Shown here: piece after piece, positions 39,349 to 48,377 of the stretch
How positions within the stretch are numbered: position 1 is the first letter of the stretch
Layout of the letters: each line of letters opens with the position of its first letter
Source of the DNA: Photobacterium pectinilyticum
Lineage (GTDB): Bacteria; Pseudomonadota; Gammaproteobacteria; Enterobacterales; Vibrionaceae
DNA length: 64,000 nt
NCBI RefSeq assembly: GCF_024357955.1
Contig: NZ_JANEYT010000015.1
Coordinates: 1-64,000 of the forward strand
Direction: 5' to 3'
Made by a program: the position numbers and the translations under genes
The notes under the pieces: generated by a model
Seen by the model: only the letters and a program-made list of their open reading frames with translations
What the model was told of the DNA's origin: nothing
The model's database searches: none

Positions 39349-40488
39349 TTGAGCAAATCAGCGCTGTTAGTCCTTGAAGATGGGACAGTGTTCCGCGGCG
39401 TGTCCATTGGGGCAGATGGTTCGGCCGTTGGTGAAGTTGTTTTTAACACCTCGATGACGGGGTATCAGGAAATTCTCACTGACCCTTCTTATTCTCAGCA
39501 GATTGTTACTCTTACTTATCCCCATATTGGAAATACCGGAACCAACTCCGAAGACGAAGAATCCTCCTCTATCCACGCCCAAGGCCTGGTAATTCGTGAC
39601 CTCCCTCTTATTGCTTCTAACTTCCGTAATCAACAGACCCTTTCTGATTACCTGAAGTCCCAGAACATCGTTGGCATTGCCGATATCGATACCCGTAAGC
39701 TAACTCGCCTACTTCGCGAGAAAGGCGCACAAAACGGCTGTGTCGTTGCGGGTAACAACCTGGACGAAGCGCTGGCACAGGCAAAAGCGAAAGAGTTCCC
39801 AGGCCTGAAAGGCATGGACTTGGCTAAAGAGGTCACAACCTCTGAAGCATACCAGTGGAAGCAGGGATCTTGGACGCTGGAAGGCGGCCTGCCTGAGGCC
39901 AAAGATGACAGCGAACTGCCATACCACGTTGTGGCGTATGACTTTGGTGCCAAGCGCAATATCTTACGTATGCTGGTTGACCGTGGCTGTCGTTTGACAG
40001 TGGTTCCTGCCCAAACTTCTGCAGAAGAAGTATTGGCCCTGAACCCAGATGGTGTATTCCTATCAAACGGCCCTGGTGACCCAGAGCCATGTACCTATGC
40101 GATTGAAGCAACCAAAGTGTTCCTAGATAAAGGTCTACCGGTATTCGGTATCTGTCTAGGCCACCAGATCCTGGCTCTGGCTTCTGGTGCACAAACAGTG
40201 AAAATGAAATTTGGCCACCATGGTGCCAACCACCCAGTTAAAGATCTTGACCGCGATGTTGTCATGATCACCTCACAGAACCACGGCTTTGCCGCTGATG
40301 AAGCAACGCTGCCTGACAACCTGCGAGCGACCCACAAGTCACTGTTTGACGGTTCGCTACAGGGTATCCATCGTACTGACAAGCCGGCATTTAGCTTCCA
40401 GGGCCACCCTGAAGCAAGCCCAGGCCCGCACGATGCAGCGCCACTATTTGATCACTTCATTGACCTAATTAAGCAGCACAGCGCCTAA
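39349..40488 (+). CDS. carA: Carbamoyl-phosphate synthase small subunit
   Basis: Glutaminase subunit feeding ammonia to CarB for arginine and pyrimidine synthesis. The class I amidotransferase triad is present: Cys269 in FGICLGHQ, and His/Glu in [15 protein letters not shown]. The start is TTG at 39349 with GGAGG at 39339-39343; the frame open from 39286 has no family similarity before it. Product 379 residues, normal. carB follows after 16 bases. Confidence 0.96.
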
Positions 40489-40504
40489 GCCGGAGTAGTA
40501 AGCA

Positions 40505-43500
40505 ATGCCAAAACGTACAGATATTCAAAGTGTTCTAATCCTAGGTGCTGGCCCGATCGTTATCGGTCAGGCCTGTGAGTTCGATTACTCAGGCGCTCAG
40601 GCGTGTAAAGCCCTACGTGAAGAAGGCTACCGAGTTATCCTGGTTAACTCGAACCCAGCTACTATCATGACTGACCCAGACATGGCCGATGCGACTTACA
40701 TCGAGCCAATCCACTGGGAAGTGGTACGCAAAATCATTGAAAAAGAGCGCCCGGATGCCGTTCTTCCTACCATGGGTGGCCAGACGGCACTGAACTGTGC
40801 ACTTGATCTTGAGAAACACGGCGTACTGGAAGAGTTCGGCGTGGAAATGATTGGTGCTACGGCTGACGCGATTGATAAAGCCGAAGATCGTTCTCGCTTC
40901 GATAAAGCGATGAAGTCGATTGGCCTTGAGTGTCCGCGTGCTGATACTGCGAAAACCATGGAAGAAGCTTACAAAGTTCTCGATATGGTTGGCTTCCCTT
41001 GTATCATCCGTCCATCGTTCACTATGGGTGGTACCGGTGGTGGTATCGCCTATAACAAAGAAGAGTTCGAAGAAATTTGTCGCCGTGGCTTGGATTTGTC
41101 ACCGACGAACGAACTGCTTATCGATGAATCACTGATTGGCTGGAAAGAGTACGAGACAGAAGTTGTTCGTGATAAGAATGATAACTGTATCATTGTTTGT
41201 ACGATTGAAAACTTCGATGCCATGGGGATCCACACCGGTGACTCCATCACCGTTGCCCCAGCCCAAACACTGACAGACAAAGAATATCAGCTAATGCGTA
41301 ATGCATCGCTAGCGGTATTGCGCGAAATCGGTGTTGAAACAGGTGGTTCGAACGTACAGTTTGGTATCAACCCGAAAGATGGCCGTATGGTTATCATCGA
41401 GATGAACCCGCGTGTATCTCGTTCTTCTGCATTGGCATCGAAAGCGACGGGATTCCCGATTGCAAAAGTAGCCGCGAAACTGGCTATTGGCTTTACCCTA
41501 GACGAACTGATGAACGACATCACTGGCGGCGCAACACCGGCTTCGTTCGAACCAACCATCGACTACGTTGTGACTAAGATCCCTCGTTTTAACTTCGAGA
41601 AGTTCGCGGGTGCGAACGACCGCCTGACGACTCAGATGAAGTCTGTTGGTGAAGTGATGGCGATTGGCCGTAACCAGCAAGAATCAATGCAAAAAGCGTT
41701 ACGCGGCCTAGAAGTTGGCGCTAACGGCTTTGATGAAATGGTTGACCTAGACGCGCCAGACGCGCTAACAACCATTCGTCATGAATTAAAAGATGCGGGC
41801 TCTGAGCGTATTTGGTATATCGCCGATGCCTTCCGTGCTGGTATGTCAGTTGATGGCGTATTCAACCTAACCAATGTTGATCGTTGGTTCCTGGTACAAA
41901 TCGAAGATATTGTAAAAGAAGAGCAAGCGGTTAAAGAGGGCGGTTTTGCTGGCCTGAATGCAGACGTACTGCGTAAGCTGAAGCGTAAAGGTTTTGCCGA
42001 TGCGCGTTTGGCGAAACTGTTGGGTGTGGCTGAATCTGAAATCCGCAAACTGCGTGATAAGTTCGACATTCACCCAGTCTACAAGCGTGTTGATACCTGT
42101 GCTGCTGAATTCTCTTCGGACACGGCGTACATGTACTCATCTTACGATGAAGAGTGTGAATCACAGCCAACGGATAAAGATAAAATCATGGTATTGGGTG
42201 GTGGCCCGAACCGTATTGGTCAAGGTATCGAGTTCGATTACTGCTGTGTACACGCTTCGCTTGCGCTGCGTGAAGACGGTTACGAAACCATCATGGTTAA
42301 CTGTAACCCAGAGACAGTTTCGACTGACTACGACACATCTGACCGCCTGTACTTCGAACCGGTAACGTTGGAAGATGTACTTGCTATCGTCCGTGTCGAG
42401 AAGCCAAAAGGTGTTATCGTTCAGTACGGTGGTCAAACACCACTGAAACTGGCTCGTGCACTTGAAGCGGCAGGCGTGCCGATTATCGGTACCAGCCCTG
42501 ATGCCATTGACCGTGCAGAAGACCGTGAGCGTTTCCAAGCTGCTGTTGAGCGTCTTGGCCTGCTACAGCCTGAAAATGCAACCGTAACGACTATGGAGCA
42601 GGCTGTTGAGAAATCAAAAGAAATTGGTTTCCCTCTGGTTGTACGTCCGTCATACGTCCTGGGTGGCCGTGCGATGGAAATCGTATACGACGAGCAAGAC
42701 CTACGCCGTTACTTCAATGAAGCGGTTAGCGTATCGAATGAATCGCCGGTTCTACTAGACCGTTTCCTTGATGATGCAATCGAAGTTGACGTTGATGCTA
42801 TCTGCGACGGTGAGCGTGTGGTTATCGGCGGTATCATGGAGCACATCGAGCAGGCAGGTGTTCACTCTGGTGACTCAGCATGTTCGCTACCAGCGTATAC
42901 GCTAAGCCAAGACATCCAAGATGTGATGCGCCAGCAAGTTGAGAAGCTAGCGTTCGAATTGGGCGTACGTGGTCTAATGAACACCCAGTTCGCGGTGAAA
43001 GACAACGAAGTCTACCTGATTGAAGTTAACCCGCGTGCTGCGCGTACGGTACCATTCGTTTCGAAGGCTACAGGCGCACCGCTGGCGAAAATCGCTGCAC
43101 GTGTAATGGCTGGTCAGTCTCTTGAGTCGCAGGGCTTTACCAAAGAGATCATCCCGCCGTACTACTCTGTAAAAGAAGTGGTATTGCCGTTCAACAAATT
43201 CCCGGGCGTTGACCCACTGCTTGGCCCTGAAATGCGCTCTACCGGTGAGGTTATGGGTGTTGGCGATACGTTTGCAGAAGCGTTTGCCAAAGCTGAGCTT
43301 GGCTGTGGTAAAGAGAAACAAGCGAAAGGACGTGCTCTATTGTCTGTTCGCGGTAACGACAAGCAACGTGTGGTTGACCTAGCTTCCAAGCTGGTTAAGC
43401 AAGGCTACGAGCTTGACGCAACGCATGGTACTGCGGTCGTTCTTGGTGAAGCCGGTATCAACCCTCGCTTGGTGAACAAAGTACATGAAGGTCGTCCTCA

Positions 43501-43729
43501 TATTCTTGACCGTATCAAGAACAACGAGTACTCGTACATTGTGAATACTGCGGAAGGCCGCCAGGCGATTGAAGATTCGAAAGTTCTTCGTCGCGGTGCC
43601 TTGGCTGAGAAGGTGAACTACACCACGACGCTGAACGCTGCCTTTGCAACGTGTATGGCTTGGAGTGCTGATGACCGTAACAAGGTAACTTCAGTACAAG
43701 AGTTACATGCTCGCATCAAAAACGCGTAA
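40505..43729 (+). CDS. carB: Carbamoyl-phosphate synthase large subunit
   Basis: A 1074-residue synthetase made of two duplicated ATP-grasp halves: the N-terminal carboxyphosphate domain (about 1-400), oligomerisation domain (400-550), C-terminal carbamoyl-phosphate domain (550-935) and an MGS-like allosteric domain (935-1074) binding UMP and ornithine. [19 protein letters not shown] and [17 protein letters not shown] mark the two halves. Codon use is that of a well-expressed gene. Ends at a strong hairpin. Confidence 0.97.
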
Positions 43730-43760
43730 CCTCGGTTTTAGTTAGCGCGAATTAATGAAC

Positions 43761-43789
43761 AAACGGCCTGCATAGCAGGCCGTTTTGTT
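43761..43789 (+). terminator. carB terminator
   Basis: AACGGCCTGC-ATAG-CAGGCCGTT followed by TTGTTA; strong stem, short T-run. Confidence 0.8.
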
Positions 43790-43880
43790 ATCTAAAAGAA
43801 GCGGAATTCACCTAACTGTCATGGTTTTGTATAACTGTGATGCCATTAATACTTTGTGTCATTTGTAATTGAAAATCCTT

Positions 43881-43909
43881 TTGCAACCCTCAACTGAAGC
43901 GCGTACAAT
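43881..43909 (+). promoter_or_regulatory. Promoter of the mgtE-like leader
   Basis: TTGCAA (43881-43886), 17-bp spacer, TACAAT (43904-43909). Predicted start near 43916 puts the small stem ATCGC-ATAA-GCGAT (43917-43930) at the very 5' end of the RNA. Confidence 0.7.
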
Positions 43910-43953
43910 TAGCCGCATCGCATAAGCGATACTTATTTTTTTTGGAGACTTAG

Positions 43954-44007
43954 ATGAACGATACCGACCATCCCCCGAGTATGAAGGTGGAAAATCAAAC
44001 CTGTTAA
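43954..44007 (+). CDS. 17-residue leader peptide of the mgtE-like gene
   Basis: The ORF MNDTDHPPSMKVENQTC starts 7-8 bases after TTGGAG and sits about 38 nt into the predicted transcript. Asp residues and a Pro-Pro pair cluster at codons 3-8, the kind of sequence that destabilises ribosomes at low Mg2+ and that is used in the MgtL leader of enterobacterial mgtA. Its codons 3-5 (ACCGAC) can pair with GTCGGT just after the stop. Function as an attenuating leader peptide is inference; I know of no described homologue. Confidence 0.5.
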   Translation: MNDTDHPPSMKVENQTC

Positions 44008-44274
44008 CGGTGTCGGTCTCCAATGATTCCGAACTAGCCTCAGGTTCGGAATAGTCTGTTACTTCTCATCTTTAGATGACCCTTTTCAAACATACTTTTC
44101 CTCGGTTTTCCCAGCCATTATCTCAATATAGAATCTCGCCAATGTGTGGTGAATGACAGGCTTTTTTCTGTCTGTAGATCGTTTTTATATCTCTGCAGAT
44201 AGGAACTAGCACATTCGCGCCGTGTCATGGCGGTTTCTGGTGGTCGTTACTGTTAGCTAATCGGGAGATTCGCC
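43962..44274 (+). promoter_or_regulatory. Structured leader of the mgtE-like gene
   Basis: Visible elements are: a stem from 43960-43968 (GATACCGAC) to 44012-44020 (GTCGGTCTC) with one mismatch; a perfect 9-bp stem ATTCCGAAC (44026-44034) with GTTCGGAAT (44044-44052); CATCTTTAGATG near 44067; and GACAG-CTTTTTT-CTGTC near 44156-44172. The rest of the 270-nt leader has no further ORF. I do not recognise the conserved M-box riboswitch. Confidence 0.5.
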
Positions 44275-45129
44275 ATGGCGGTAATGAACTATGCAGCTGA
44301 TGCTGTGCTAGTAAACGAAAACTTGGCTGAGAACGATGTTCTGGCCGTACGCAACGCGTTTTTGAAATATGACATCGAAGAACAAGCCAAATTGCTGGTC
44401 AAGATGCCTATTTCAGAAGCGATTGCTATCTTGCATGAGATCCCACTTCGCCATGTACAGATCTTGTTGGATCTGCTTGATGATATGGATGAAGAAGTTT
44501 GTATGCGTCACTTGGCTAACGGCCTGGGCTTAATTTGTTCGGAAGCGGAGCCTGCAGGTCACTATCTGCAAAACAGTGTATTTAGCCACGTGCGTGAGCG
44601 TATTGGCTGGATTGTTGGCTTGGCGTTGCTGGGTATTGTATCGGGTCTTATCATCTCTCACTACGAAGATACCCTGAGCCAGCTGGTACTTCTGGCCGTG
44701 TACATGCCTGTTATTGCGGCTGCTGGTGGTAACACCGGATCTCAGGCTGCAACCTTGGTTGTCAGAGCCCTAGCAATGGAAGAGATACGCTGCCGGGATT
44801 GGGTCAAGGTAATGTGGAAGGAATTCCGAGTTGCGCTGGTGATCGCCGGTGTTTTGGCCGCGGTTATCATGGGACGCGTGATGATGTTCAGCGATGGCTC
44901 GTCATTACCTATCGGTATGGAACTGATGGATATCTCGATGGCCATCGGGGTAGCCATTTCTTTGCAGGTTGTGCTGTCGACAACGGTAGGCGGTGTGCTT
45001 CCGATGATTGCCCGTGCAGCCAAGCTTGATCCTGCGGTACTGGTGAGCCCGGTATTGGCATCGGTAGTCGATATTACCGGTATGATCATTTACTTCAAGA
45101 CGGTCAATGCATTCCTAGCGCTGGCCTAG
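44275..45129 (+). CDS. MgtE-like divalent cation transporter lacking CBS domains
   Basis: A 284-residue membrane protein. The C-terminal part (about 112-284) has five hydrophobic segments with the MgtE pore signature YMPVIAAAGGNTGSQAATLVVRAL and matches the MgtE (SLC41-type) transmembrane domain. The first 100 residues (ISEAIAILHEIPLRHVQILL) resemble a reduced MgtE N domain; the CBS pair that gates canonical MgtE (about 450 residues) is missing. Mg2+ or Co2+ transport is inferred. ATG 44275 follows GGGAGA. Regulation is probably through the long leader with its small ORF. Confidence 0.85.
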   Translation: MAVMNYAADAVLVNENLAENDVLAVRNAFLKYDIEEQAKLLVKMPISEAIAILHEIPLRHVQILLDLLDDMDEEVCMRHLANGLGLICSEAEPAGHYLQNSVFSHVRERIGWIVGLALLGIVSGLIISHYEDTLSQLVLLAVYMPVIAAAGGNTGSQAATLVVRALAMEEIRCRDWVKVMWKEFRVALVIAGVLAAVIMGRVMMFSDGSSLPIGMELMDISMAIGVAISLQVVLSTTVGGVLPMIARAAKLDPAVLVSPVLASVVDITGMIIYFKTVNAFLALA

Positions 45130-45157
45130 TCCAAACTGCCTCAATATTTAGACCATA

Positions 45158-45191
45158 AAAAAGCGAGTGACGATGAGTCACTCGCTTTTTT
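45158..45191. terminator. Bidirectional terminator mgtE-like/dacB
   Basis: AAAAAGCGAGTGAC (45158-45171) and GTCACTCGCTTTTT (45177-45190): 14 perfect base pairs between convergent genes. Confidence 0.95.
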
Positions 45192-45217
45192 GTTTAGCTT
45201 ATCGACACACTTTAGTG

Positions 45218-46696
45218 TCAGTATTGCTTGTATAGGCTTTGGTATAACGTGCGCTCGAACGTTTCGATCGGCGGCGCAATAGCCGGTTGGCTTTCATCGC
45301 GTTCTGGCGGGAAGTAGTTACTCACCATCTGGACAAACAGCAGGGTTTTACCTGACTGGGTTGTTAGTATTCCGGCGAGGTTATAGGTGCCATACAGTGA
45401 GCCGCTTTTGGCGCGGATATTTCCCTTCAGTGGTTGCTGGCGGAGACTCTGGCGGTAGCGCAGGGTGCCGCTTTGACCGCTGACGGGCATGGTCGCCAGT
45501 AGATCTAACTCATCGTTATGCTGGTAGATGTAAGTGATCACTTCCATCATTTGGCTTGTTGTCATTCGGTTGTTGCGGGACAATCCTGAACCATCGACCA
45601 TCACTGCACGCTCTAGGTCGATATTGGTTTCTTTCTTGAGGATCGCTTTTATGGCCTTGCTGCCGTTGGTAAAGCTGCCCGGCTGGTTGAAATACTCAGC
45701 GCCTAAGGTCTTGGCAATATTATCGGCATACAGGTTGTCGGATCTTTTGACCATATGGTCGAGTAATTCGTTCAGCGGTGCTGACTGGTGGTTTGCAATG
45801 ACCTTGCCCTTTGTATCCGTCGCTTTGTCATCACGCTTTATCTGACCTTCTAGCTTGATCCCGAGACGTTTTAATTCAGCCATGATCACTTGGCTGATAT
45901 AGGTTTCGGTGTCTTGTACCGCAAAATTGAGCGGCAGCGGCTTGTCGCGCTTTACTAGGCAGCCGCTCAAGTGATAGTGGTTACTTCCTTTATCAACCAG
46001 TTCAAGGTCACAATGACTCGCTTTCTGCTCTTCCTTGGTTGTTACTCGCGCACTGGTCGTGACGGTCAGTGGCTGGTGGTTGGGAATATTAACCCTGGTG
46101 CTCTCTCCGATTTGACGATTGCTGTATAGTGCCCCCTGTACACAGTTGTGTTCAAGGCTCAGGCTGCTCGATGGCGCGCTATAGCACACCCCCAGTATAT
46201 CCCACGGCCACCCCGGCGCTTGCTCATAGCCACTGAACTGGCTGCCGTTAAGCAGAAAGTCCCCTTTGATGGTGCTACCAGTATGGGCCTTGAGCTTGCC
46301 CAGTAACCCTGTGAGCTGCTTGCGTGATAAAGAGGGATCACCACTGAAGCGCAGCACGATATCATCCTCTTGCTGTTCTAGCTGGGTAGTAAAGCGGTAG
46401 TCCTTGCCGAGGTATAGCTGGGCAGCCAGTGCCGTGACCATTTTCTGGATACTGGCAGGAGGTTGAAACTGGTTCTCACGCTGCGCATAAAGCATCTTGC
46501 CGGTATTGGCATCTGCAACGAGCAAGGCAGTATCGTTGCCGTAGGGTAGCGAGCGGAGATCTGGGTGAAATGTCGCAGGGGCCATTGAGGCTGGCTCAGG
46601 ATCAGCTGTATTTATATTAGTGGGTTGGCCGACTGCCATGGGGGAAAGCAGCGACAAGCTAGCTGTTATAAGTACAAGACGAAGTGGCAGTTGCAT
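45218..46696 (-). CDS. dacB: D-alanyl-D-alanine carboxypeptidase/endopeptidase (PBP4)
   Basis: Periplasmic class C low-molecular-weight penicillin-binding protein trimming peptidoglycan cross-links. A signal peptide (about 1-23, ending AVG) precedes the active-site SIQK at 82-85; the SxN motif is SDN (MVKRSDNLYADN) and the KTG box is KSG (IRAKSGSLYGTYN). The large insert typical of PBP4 lies between SxxK and SxN. Length 492 fits E. coli DacB (477). It lies downstream of ompU on the same strand but separated by a terminator. Confidence 0.93.
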   Translation of the reverse strand: MQLPLRLVLITASLSLLSPMAVGQPTNINTADPEPASMAPATFHPDLRSLPYGNDTALLVADANTGKMLYAQRENQFQPPASIQKMVTALAAQLYLGKDYRFTTQLEQQEDDIVLRFSGDPSLSRKQLTGLLGKLKAHTGSTIKGDFLLNGSQFSGYEQAPGWPWDILGVCYSAPSSSLSLEHNCVQGALYSNRQIGESTRVNIPNHQPLTVTTSARVTTKEEQKASHCDLELVDKGSNHYHLSGCLVKRDKPLPLNFAVQDTETYISQVIMAELKRLGIKLEGQIKRDDKATDTKGKVIANHQSAPLNELLDHMVKRSDNLYADNIAKTLGAEYFNQPGSFTNGSKAIKAILKKETNIDLERAVMVDGSGLSRNNRMTTSQMMEVITYIYQHNDELDLLATMPVSGQSGTLRYRQSLRQQPLKGNIRAKSGSLYGTYNLAGILTTQSGKTLLFVQMVSNYFPPERDESQPAIAPPIETFERTLYQSLYKQY

Positions 46697-46931
46697 CTGT
46701 GGCCCCTGTTTTCTGAACGATGAGTTTGAACATTAGATATTGAACATGGATATTTGATTCTCATTACACCCATGATAAACAATATGGGACAGATAAAAAG
46801 TCAGAGGCAGGAAAGCTTGTTGGAGCGGGGACAAAAAGTCTCTATAAAAAGAGATTGCAAACATAAAAAAACACCGGCCAGAAGGCCGGTGCTTAGAAAA
46901 GGCTGCATTAACGCTCTATATCCAAATTGGA
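46697..46931. other. dacB-ompU spacer
   Basis: Contains the ompU terminator and a 74-codon plus-strand open frame (46754-46978) that runs antisense through that terminator and into ompU; it has no ribosome site and I do not accept it. Confidence 0.6.
46864..46893 (-). terminator. ompU terminator
   Basis: CACCGGCC-AGAA-GGCCGGTG with an eight-A tract on the plus strand (T-run for ompU). Confidence 0.9.
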
Positions 46932-47930
46932 TTAGAAGTCGTAACGTGCACCTAGAACTAGCTCATCAGAAGTATTAGCTCGAGTGATACCAGCTGTAGA
47001 GTCTTGGTCTAGCATGTTGAACTTGTACGATGCGTACGTACGGAAGTTCTTGTTGAAGTAGTGAGTTGCATCAATTGCAAGAGAGTCACGTAGGTCAACG
47101 TTCTTGTCTGTGTCTTCTAGGTAGTTGTAAGTTGCAACAAATACAGTTTTACCCATAGTGTAAGCTGCAGCAAATTCGTAACCTGTAGATTCTTTAACGT
47201 TGATGCTGTTTTTGCTTGCATCTTTGTATACAGAAGTGTTACGTGCGTCTTGGTAAAGACCAGCAACGTAGAAATCACCGAAGGTGTAAGAAACGCCAGC
47301 GAATGCTTGCTTACCAGTTGAATCACCAACTTGGCCGTCTTGCTCGCCGTAACCCGCACCGAATGCTAGACCCATGTCTAGTGCGTAGATTGCACCAACA
47401 GAGTAACCGTCAGTATCATCACCATCGTCGAATACGTAGTTCGCTTTAACAACTAGGTTGTCACCGCCAAGGTCGAAAGAACCCACGTATGCTAGGTTGT
47501 TGCCAGTACGGTCAGCTGCAGCTAGTTTGTTACCCGCTTCGTTACCGTGGTATGACATGATATCAGTCATGTCAGTGATCATGCCTAGAGAGCCGTCAGT
47601 CTTACCGTAAACAACTTGACCGAAATCGCCGCCAATACCTGCGTTGATGTGACGGTTGTTAACTTGGTTGCCGTCAGTGAACTCGCCTTCGTAGAAGCCG
47701 ATACCGTATACTGAATCAGTGATGTCAGTTTTACCAGCAACATTGATACGAGTACGAGTAGCATCAGAAACTTTGCTGTCGCCAGCTTCGTTGTCGGCCA
47801 TTACTGCACGTGCTTCAAAACGACCACCAATTGCTAGGCTTGATGTTTCGTCAGAGTAAACTTCTGCTGCTGTTGCTACAGAAGAGATTGATGCTGCTGC
47901 TACTGCTAGAGCAATCAGTTTCTTGTTCAT
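46932..47930 (-). CDS. ompU: OmpU-type general porin
   Basis: A 332-residue outer-membrane trimeric porin. A signal peptide ends in ATA (residue 21), the mature protein starts AEVYSDETSSLAIGGRFEAR, and the C-terminal residue is Phe (GARYDF), as needed for BAM recognition. Alternating amphipathic strands run throughout; it is acidic, as in marine porins. Codon use is strongly biased to preferred codons, indicating very high expression. In V. cholerae OmpU is activated by ToxR and sits beside greA and dacB, as here. ToxR control is not shown by the sequence. ATG 47930 follows AAAGGA. Confidence 0.92.
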   Translation of the reverse strand: MNKKLIALAVAAASISSVATAAEVYSDETSSLAIGGRFEARAVMADNEAGDSKVSDATRTRINVAGKTDITDSVYGIGFYEGEFTDGNQVNNRHINAGIGGDFGQVVYGKTDGSLGMITDMTDIMSYHGNEAGNKLAAADRTGNNLAYVGSFDLGGDNLVVKANYVFDDGDDTDGYSVGAIYALDMGLAFGAGYGEQDGQVGDSTGKQAFAGVSYTFGDFYVAGLYQDARNTSVYKDASKNSINVKESTGYEFAAAYTMGKTVFVATYNYLEDTDKNVDLRDSLAIDATHYFNKNFRTYASYKFNMLDQDSTAGITRANTSDELVLGARYDF

Positions 47931-48377
47931 TGTCGAATCCTTTTGGAATTATTTTGTTGTATGCATATCAATGCTAAATGCATGCTGTTCTTTTTACTGG
48001 TCTCTGGCCCGATCTGTTAGTAAAAAAAACTGAAAAATACTTTATTCCAATAGGTTGCGATCTTTTTGTGATGCTTATTGTCTTTAATATCAGTTGTTTA
48101 TAGGTATTAAATAAAGTTCGGTTTTAGGGGCGTTTTTTAGCTGTTTTTAGGGTTTTGTTCTTGCTTTTTTAGTCGGAAATAATTGTTTTATTAAATGTTT
48201 TTGTGATCTTTAGCGCATAAATTTTAAACGGCATGCGCTAGGCGTATGAATTGTGAAATTTTTATGATTTCTGACCGATAAGCTAGCGCCTGTCATGTAA
48301 AGTGTGCCGCTCAATGAACAGGATGATCTCTTGGGCATCTTTGTTTAGAATGAAGTGTTCCCATTAGTAATCGCTGA
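47931..48377. other. ompU-greA divergent intergenic region
   Basis: An AT-rich divergent control region. Close to ompU it has mirrored ATGCAT words (47970-47994) that can pair in the ompU leader. Poly-T/poly-A stretches around 48022-48050 and 48100-48190 would suit ToxR or H-NS binding, but I could not define sites. A 17-codon ORF at 48314 has no ribosome site. Confidence 0.4.

Follow-up and report, generated by a model that had tools for sequence, protein, structure and literature searches.

The window analysed here is a stretch of 64,000 nucleotides from the 5.7-Mb genome of Photobacterium pectinilyticum, whose closest named kin by MgtE protein are P. lutimaris (97% identical) and P. sanctipauli (95% identical). 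Between carB and the gene for a short MgtE-like divalent cation transporter lies a leader that contains a short upstream open reading frame (uORF), several stems and a structured mgtE start site:

40505-43729: carB, the upstream neighbour of the mgtE leader
43761-43785: terminator-like site after carB
43881-43909, forward strand: promoter-like sequence TTGCAA-17-TACAAT, matching the consensus at 9 of 12 positions
43917-43930, forward strand: 5' hairpin AUCGC-AUAA-GCGAU, close to where transcription is inferred to start
43942-43949, forward strand: outer 5' arm of stem P1, covering the uORF Shine-Dalgarno sequence; pairing taken from folds of the window
43944-43947, forward strand: uORF Shine-Dalgarno sequence GGAG
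43954-44007, forward strand: leader ORF MNDTDHPPSMKVENQTC and TAA, 17 codons plus stop
43959-43966, forward strand: inner 5' arm of P1 (uORF codons 2-5), with changes on both sides at uORF nucleotides 7-9
43966-43980, forward strand: conserved core codons GAC CAT CCC CCG AGT (Asp-His-Pro-Pro-Ser)
44008-44023, forward strand: 3' arm of P1, starting right behind the uORF stop
44026-44052, forward strand: hairpin 2
44053-44145, forward strand: pyrimidine-rich, G-poor stretch, a possible Rho loading region
44239-44251, forward strand: conserved start-site element GGUGGUCGUUACU, the 5' arm closing the mgtE start site
44256-44273, forward strand: inner hairpin GC-U-AAUC-GGGA-GAUU-C-GC, with the mgtE Shine-Dalgarno sequence inside its loop
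44275-45129, forward strand: short MgtE-like divalent cation transporter of 284 amino acids, in which no CBS domain was found
44280-44287, forward strand: 3' arm of the start-site stem, GGUAAUGA (mgtE codons 2-5)

Many of these features had been noticed in a first-pass annotation, which read them as leader-peptide control analogous to that by MgtL. The 5' stem, the 17-codon ORF with its ribosome site and the pairing of the start region (43942-43949 plus 43959-43966) with the sequence behind the stop (44008-44023) were all found again, and the 270 nt given for the leader agree with the 267 nt that we measured between the uORF stop and the ATG of mgtE (44275). The remaining elements are present as well. 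For the TTGCAA-17-TACAAT sequence, four such sites occur in 900 bases versus 1.6 expected, so the match is weak when taken alone; relatives carry an A+T-rich box at the matching distance in the alignment, as judged by eye and uncounted. Hairpin 2, described as a perfect 9-bp stem, exists but has ten pairs, nine Watson-Crick and one G-U. At the place in the alignment that corresponds to the 5' hairpin, the sequences of the relatives differ by eye. When the whole 363-nt leader was folded, it reached -103.6 kcal/mol versus -88.6 kcal/mol (sd 5.1) for 100 shuffles (z -2.95). Five Grimontia/Enterovibrio loci (L027, L028, L030, L031, L032) have in common the stretch ATAACCTCCTTGCCCGCC just before the carB terminator, which we take to be reminiscent of the carAB 3'-UTR sRNA CarZ.

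Thirty-four relatives were picked from one public genome collection by their MgtE protein alone, with the ORF unused in the selection, and all 34 possess the uORF in frame and with a Shine-Dalgarno sequence. A pattern expression for the uORF caught 33 of them; the remaining one (L022) is a Tyr6 variant that reads MNDTDYPPSMKQENLA. The uORFs encode 14-19 residues. Their consensus is M-N-x-[T/I/N]-D-[H/Q/Y]-P-P-S plus a variable tail; the first nine residues are strongly conserved, the part behind Ser9 poorly. The core DNA pattern is found in 212 of 329 Vibrionaceae genomes, with a single match per genome (reversed pattern, 2/329), and mgtE is present downstream in each of the 70 pattern loci inspected (69 of these genomes plus the window). 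Its position is directly adjacent in 105/105 loci (104 plus the window), a collection in which the pattern-found and named-collection sets overlap in species and in which 34 loci were selected by the MgtE protein alone. The reading frame, whose loss had been named beforehand as refuting the leader-peptide reading, is kept, and Pro8 varies in its third base only.

All 117 pattern-negative Vibrionaceae genomes were searched with the MgtE protein, 52 of them at a cut-off of 1e-10 and 65 at 1e-40. A short MgtE is present in eight, and the others contain different MgtE paralogs only, or none at these cut-offs. Seven of the eight carry a variant D-x-P-P leader: MNNTDHPPVAG in G102 and G194 (L108 and L111), in which a natural one-base deletion after Pro-Pro has removed the serine and shortened the peptide to 11 residues while the start-site element is intact; MSNADNPPSSRGEK in G216 and G218; MSNTDNPPSSRGEK in G217; and MQNVDFPPSLNGIGNN, without an obvious Shine-Dalgarno sequence, in G258 and G321 (L138 and L139), which retain the peptide although the conserved start-site element is absent. 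The eighth leader (G276, L109) looks decayed; its ATG has become CTG, the core is altered and both arms of the start-site stem are lost too. A short mgtE match with in-frame stops at G260:C4:453340-453948, which may reflect gene decay or a fault of the assembly, is accompanied by both the leader and the start-site element. One annotated Salinivibrio record, whose gene table is incomplete, shows no feature in the 346 nt that precede mgtE.

The peptide core extends to other families, which the first-pass annotation had missed. When 394 genomes from the order were surveyed, 13 matches turned up outside Vibrionaceae. One of them (G375, L141) specifies an MgtE that is 74% identical to that of the window, preceded by a complete leader that comprises MNDSDHPPSIKVGNNP and a start-site element; this unit resides in a different gene context (L141 1298-1500), and its protein is placed beside the window protein in a tree (support 99/79), a position that points to a probable horizontal transfer of the leader together with mgtE. 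The other 12 matches (families f2, f6 and f12) belong to longer MgtE proteins that are 43-46% identical across the membrane part, and all 12 long-form loci have the leader core [D/E]-x-Pro-Pro-Ser (for example MEIDIPPS..., MENEIPPS..., MLNDIPPS... and MKKDIPPS...) embedded in different RNA. Family f2 consists of 11 genomes of one genus, of which seven have a long-form MgtE, each with the leader. A class-wide search for further long-form relatives, run without a positive control, gave none in 369 genomes at E <= 1e-60.

As a control, we inspected 24 MgtE loci from Vibrionaceae genomes without the exact uORF pattern, leaving out the short-MgtE loci. Related leaders precede two of them (MNSNSQEPPSW... 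and MNTNKQEPPSW..., L114 and L118), another acidic leader (MDGDSR...) precedes two, and the other 20 have neither. Survey and control scan together define the invariant core as Pro-Pro-Ser and, usually one position ahead of it, an acidic residue. In L114 (MNSNSQEPPSWRFKIVHL) and L118 (MNTNKQEPPSWWFNSFST), glutamate stands directly before Pro-Pro-Ser and tryptophan behind it, again with CCY as the first proline codon and AGT for serine. The different acidic leader found in L112 (MDGDSRSWAIKFNKRRVLSRRL) and L113 (MDGDSRFLLNSSRGWRW), two Vibrionaceae genomes, is located before a long MgtE and is a possible second leader type; a wider scan of the 24 control loci also listed further short ORFs of acidic type, in L114, L119 and L131. 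ORFs with PPS in L127, L130 and L134 were rejected as leaders, being situated inside a coding frame, out of frame and with no acidic neighbour of Pro-Pro. L114 also harbours, as a single occurrence, the short ORF MEPDSCHYCSY with a Shine-Dalgarno sequence 226 nt before the open mgtE frame begins; its first residues, MEPD, are those with which MgtL starts.

Among 61 distinct Vibrionaceae uORFs, from loci mostly gathered by a pattern that fixes GAY and AGY, the codon for Pro7 is CCT or CCC only and that for Ser9 is AGT only, while the third base of Pro8 is free (CCG 29, CCT 19, CCC 10, CCA 3). We parsed 55 loci across families (the 34 MgtE-selected loci and the window, five variants, L141, the 12 long-form loci, L114 and L118), which include many close kin and hence are not independent. 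The first proline codon is CCC or CCU followed by C in 55/55, the acidic residue stands directly before Pro-Pro or one residue earlier, and the codon following Pro-Pro is AGU in 53/55, other families included, the two exceptions being the MNNTDHPPVAG frameshift. L138 and L139, which are beyond the 55, have the codons CCT CCC AGT. For comparison, CCY makes up 41 of 113 proline codons and AGU 17 of 184 serine codons in seven genes of the window. CCC and CCU are described as slow, and as avoided in the first position of proline pairs (PMC8129111); CC[C/U]-C codons are further reported to need the m1G37 tRNA modification by TrmD, a strictly Mg2+-dependent enzyme, a property proposed to be relevant for MgtL (PMC6335274). 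The CCY bias at the first proline, taken together with this published slowness and TrmD dependence, makes the leader look as if it had been selected for a pause; the CCY and AGU choices together are what a programmed slow spot would predict. For the AGU preference at the serine we found no explanation.

The RNA around the uORF is structured beyond expectation. Segment 43939-44055 folds to -36.1 kcal/mol versus -26.9 (sd 3.3) for shuffled sequences, only one of 200 of which was as low. The mean duplex energy of P1 across 81 distinct rows is -13.4 kcal/mol, compared with -7.4 when the partners were letter-shuffled (100 rounds, the lowest mean being -8.2) and with -12.2 when they were swapped between rows; the stem is weak in L045 (-4.4). 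With the pairs picked by energy, which favours pairing, 79 rows gave A-U 43, G-C 29, G-U 3 and C-G 1 at uORF nucleotide 7, A-U 61, C-G 8 and U-A 3 at nucleotide 8, and U-A 50, U-G 16 and A-U 2 at nucleotide 9. Of the two stems for which the first-pass annotation had proposed a covariation check, P1 has thus changed on both of its sides, and the region of hairpin 2 is more stable than its dinucleotide-shuffled versions in 82 of 83 rows. Hairpin 2 was rejected as an intrinsic terminator; it is absent from the predicted terminator sites and has no U run after it. The pyrimidine-rich stretch behind it contains more C than G in 98 of 105 loci (fixed window, no shuffle control).

A second structured region, a conserved hairpin at the mgtE start site, had escaped the first-pass annotation. 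Segment 44236-44292 folds to -19.9 kcal/mol versus -12.1 (sd 2.4) for shuffles, with 1/200 as low; in the predicted fold the helix between GGUCGUUACC and mgtE codons 2-5 closes around the hairpin whose loop holds the Shine-Dalgarno sequence. The GGA in this loop was considered as what would presumably be a CsrA-type site. The start-site element is present in 181/329 genomes (reversed control, 0), and in a comparison of tables by eye all but two of these (G102 and G194) also have the uORF pattern. Among 12 distinct combinations of its arms, nine retain 7 or 8 of the 8 pairs, while 6 remain in L026; L025 has one compensatory pair as well as one break, the stem is broken in L034 and L086, and in the lineage of G216-G218 plus G276 both arms are gone together. 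Altogether, the stem is broken or lost in L034, L086, L109, L110, L136 and L137, and partly so in L025, L026 and L083, and most of these loci keep the uORF; the output switch is therefore not uniform. Part of the element (GGUGGUCG) is complementary, with one G-U, to CGACCAUC in the uORF, an 8-bp complementarity that 0.2-1.3% of shuffles reach. The eight pairs between CGACCAUC and GAUGGUCG are kept in 34 of 47 distinct rows, are worse by eye in the L022 and L026 types and have no compensatory support, and we put this long-range pairing forward as a suggestion only.

The transporter encoded behind this leader, whose substrate we assume to be Mg2+, resembles MgtE in the membrane domain only. The window protein scores 110.8 bits with the PF01769 membrane domain (cut-off 27.6) and aligns with residues 306-468 of the MgtE of entry 2yvx. 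Its MgtE_N score (16.4 bits) is below the cut-off of 25.9, CBS is absent, and with 135.4 it stays below the TIGR00400 cut-off of 232.75. In classical MgtE proteins the N and CBS domains are reported to gate the channel by Mg2+. We compared the domains of leader-bearing proteins and paralogs at E up to 0.01. In most of the leader-bearing MgtEs that were tested, no N/CBS module for sensing magnesium is recognisable: six of the seven longer proteins tested from other families match PF01769 only, as does L118 of the QEPPS pair. All four leaderless paralogs tested have the N domain and some CBS match, one below the cut-off. L112 and L113 have a CBS match, below the cut-off in the former and above it in the latter, and neither has the N domain. 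The association of the leader with CBS loss is a tendency and not a rule, because L114 is complete (N plus CBS), L164 also has a CBS match and L120 is a short MgtE without a PPS leader. In a tree of 47 membrane domains, the 16 D-x-P-P-S proteins group together in a single clade (88/87). All leader types fall, with six leaderless paralogs, into one half of the tree (33 rows, 96/95), and the other half consists of 14 leaderless paralogs; some branches are very long.

Taken together, the observation made in the first-pass annotation is real and more general than reported, and its interpretation as leader-peptide control analogous to MgtL finds support in sequence conservation and analogy. The leader is convincing as a conserved leader; its Mg2+ sensing through pausing, the direction of the switch and the part that Rho or translation would play in it are what we infer. 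We consider it fairly probable that the mgtE mRNA of Vibrionaceae starts with a cis-acting leader peptide that controls mgtE via the slowing of ribosomes at low Mg2+. The leader would most likely act as a brake that is released once ribosomes slow on the uORF, and this release would probably occur when magnesium is scarce. Ribosomes would start on the uORF immediately upon its transcription, and fast reading through [D/E]-x-Pro-Pro-Ser to the end would leave the downstream RNA closed, with the mgtE Shine-Dalgarno sequence and start inside the hairpin and with an early end of transcription possible in the pyrimidine-rich stretch. At low cytosolic Mg2+, a pause or drop-off would be expected at Asp-x-Pro(CCY)-Pro-Ser(AGU). 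With Pro8 in its P site, a ribosome of the usual footprint size would cover roughly uORF nucleotides 8-38 and with them the greater part of P1's 5' arm; P1 would thus stay open as long as a ribosome is paused there, and would be free to close once the ribosome has finished or if there is none. When the uORF is occupied, P1 could not form, the leader would refold and mgtE would be made. The closed start site points to control of translation and the C-rich stretch to Rho, and either or both may act. By analogy with MgtL (PMC11282234), slow or aborted reading of the uORF should raise mgtE expression. Several points count against this proposal: the core has one acidic residue and two prolines, fewer than MgtL; the start-site stem is not kept in every lineage; L138 and L139 have the peptide without the start-site element or an obvious Shine-Dalgarno sequence; P1 is weak in L045; and the MNNTDHPPVAG variant lacks the serine.

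A signal other than Mg2+, such as EF-P or prolyl-tRNA status, polyamines, or a low salinity or osmotic state that slows reading of Pro-Pro-Ser, strikes us as unlikely, yet it is the strongest competitor. Amino-acid attenuators usually have more regulatory codons than the two prolines present here, on which ground a proline attenuator was rejected, and the conserved acidic residue and the controlled gene both point to Mg2+. On the other side, Pro-Pro is reported to need EF-P, and codons described as slow and avoided first in proline pairs (PMC8129111) nevertheless occupy that position in all parsed loci. One MgtE of Photobacterium damselae, possibly from another mgtE gene, is reported to be 5.35-fold up at low salinity (PMC10308900); low-salinity seawater media may, however, be poor in Mg2+ too.

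It is quite improbable that an RNA element, be it a riboswitch-like Mg2+ sensor or the target of an sRNA or protein at the mgtE start, is what has been conserved, with the ORF incidental or secondary. P1, hairpin 2, the start-site stem and the rarity of the uORF/start-site complementarity among shuffles would fit such an element, and so would the near-invariant nucleotides of the start site and of AAC and CAT in the uORF (GAC and AGT are near-invariant as well, partly through the way loci were selected). The free third base of Pro8 amid fixed amino acids speaks against it, as does the peptide core that is kept amid different RNA in other families and in L138/L139. In window positions 40000-48000 the matches to Rfam (E up to 5) were weak and chance-like, none of them credible, and no family reached gathering score in 10 relatives; the M-box riboswitch (RF00380) matched neither in that region at E up to 5 nor in the 10 relatives at gathering score. 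A small protein acting in trans, for example on MgtE, could account for the strongly conserved first nine residues and the constant neighbourhood of mgtE, but is highly improbable given the 14-19 residues with a poorly conserved tail, the natural 11-residue variant and the retention of slow codons that suit pausing rather than yield.

A leader peptide analogous and not homologous to MgtL of the Salmonella/E. coli mgtA gene is the best reading of these comparisons. Both uORFs precede a Mg2+ transporter gene within its leader, beside stems and a pyrimidine-rich stretch, and both have N-terminal acidic and proline residues and CC[C/U] codons (PMC11282234; PMC6335274). In contrast to MgtL, the mgtE leader has [D/E]-x-P-P-S without EPDP and without the basic tail, the RNA, the families and the transporter class (MgtE, not a P-type ATPase) differ, and the mgtE start site is additionally closed by a hairpin. 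Judged by eye against EPDP (PMC11282234) and the MgtL sequence, no motif beyond acidic and proline residues is common to the two. CorL is likewise a short ORF, situated in the structured 5' leader of corA, which encodes a Mg2+ channel, and is described as inversely related to downstream expression; its conserved N-terminus has a single proline and the gene family is another one (PMC11552253). MgtP and MgtM are proline-codon leader ORFs before the Mg2+-related mgtCBR operon, and MgtP of Photobacterium damselae is named in a figure legend; we set them apart by their description, since that leader responds to ATP and proline and precedes other genes (PMC3641672). The M-box (ykoK) riboswitch also controls mgtE-type genes, and that of Mycobacterium tuberculosis is reported to act on a conserved uORF with Rho (PMC12810186), but there the uORF is the target of the riboswitch, whereas in the mgtE leader the sensor appears to be the peptide itself. 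The mgtE motif SRC-65-1, another candidate cis element, overlaps the start site of an mgtE gene and is set apart by its description as a riboswitch candidate of Thioalkalivibrio only (PMC11109978). In agreement with the first-pass annotation, we found no earlier account of an mgtE leader peptide from Vibrionaceae in the open-access full-text literature, outside of which lie most subscription papers and all bioRxiv preprints. We regard the mgtE leader as a new leader-peptide family of a known kind.

More tentatively, and with some doubt, this MgtE subfamily might have given up sensing by its N and CBS domains and moved Mg2+ sensing to the ribosome, with the leader setting the amount of an ungated channel. 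The motif [D/E]-x-Pro(CCY)-Pro-Ser(AGU) would then be decoded in a manner that depends on Mg2+-sensitive tRNA modification, on EF-P or on the stability of the nascent chain, and in Vibrionaceae the paused ribosome, P1 and the pairing of the uORF with the start site would form one switch.

Mg2+-responsive leader peptides are already known for mgtA, mgtCBR and corA of enterobacteria. The mgtE leaders add a family in which the core is fixed while the RNA changes freely, before another transporter class and in several bacterial families. Such a combination separates what the ribosome must read from the task of the RNA, and offers a natural experiment on which leader residues and codons matter. Its CCY and AGU choices make models based on TrmD/m1G37, on EF-P and on ribosome drop-off testable side by side, and the link to the loss of the N/CBS sensor suggests that control has shifted from protein gating to gene expression.
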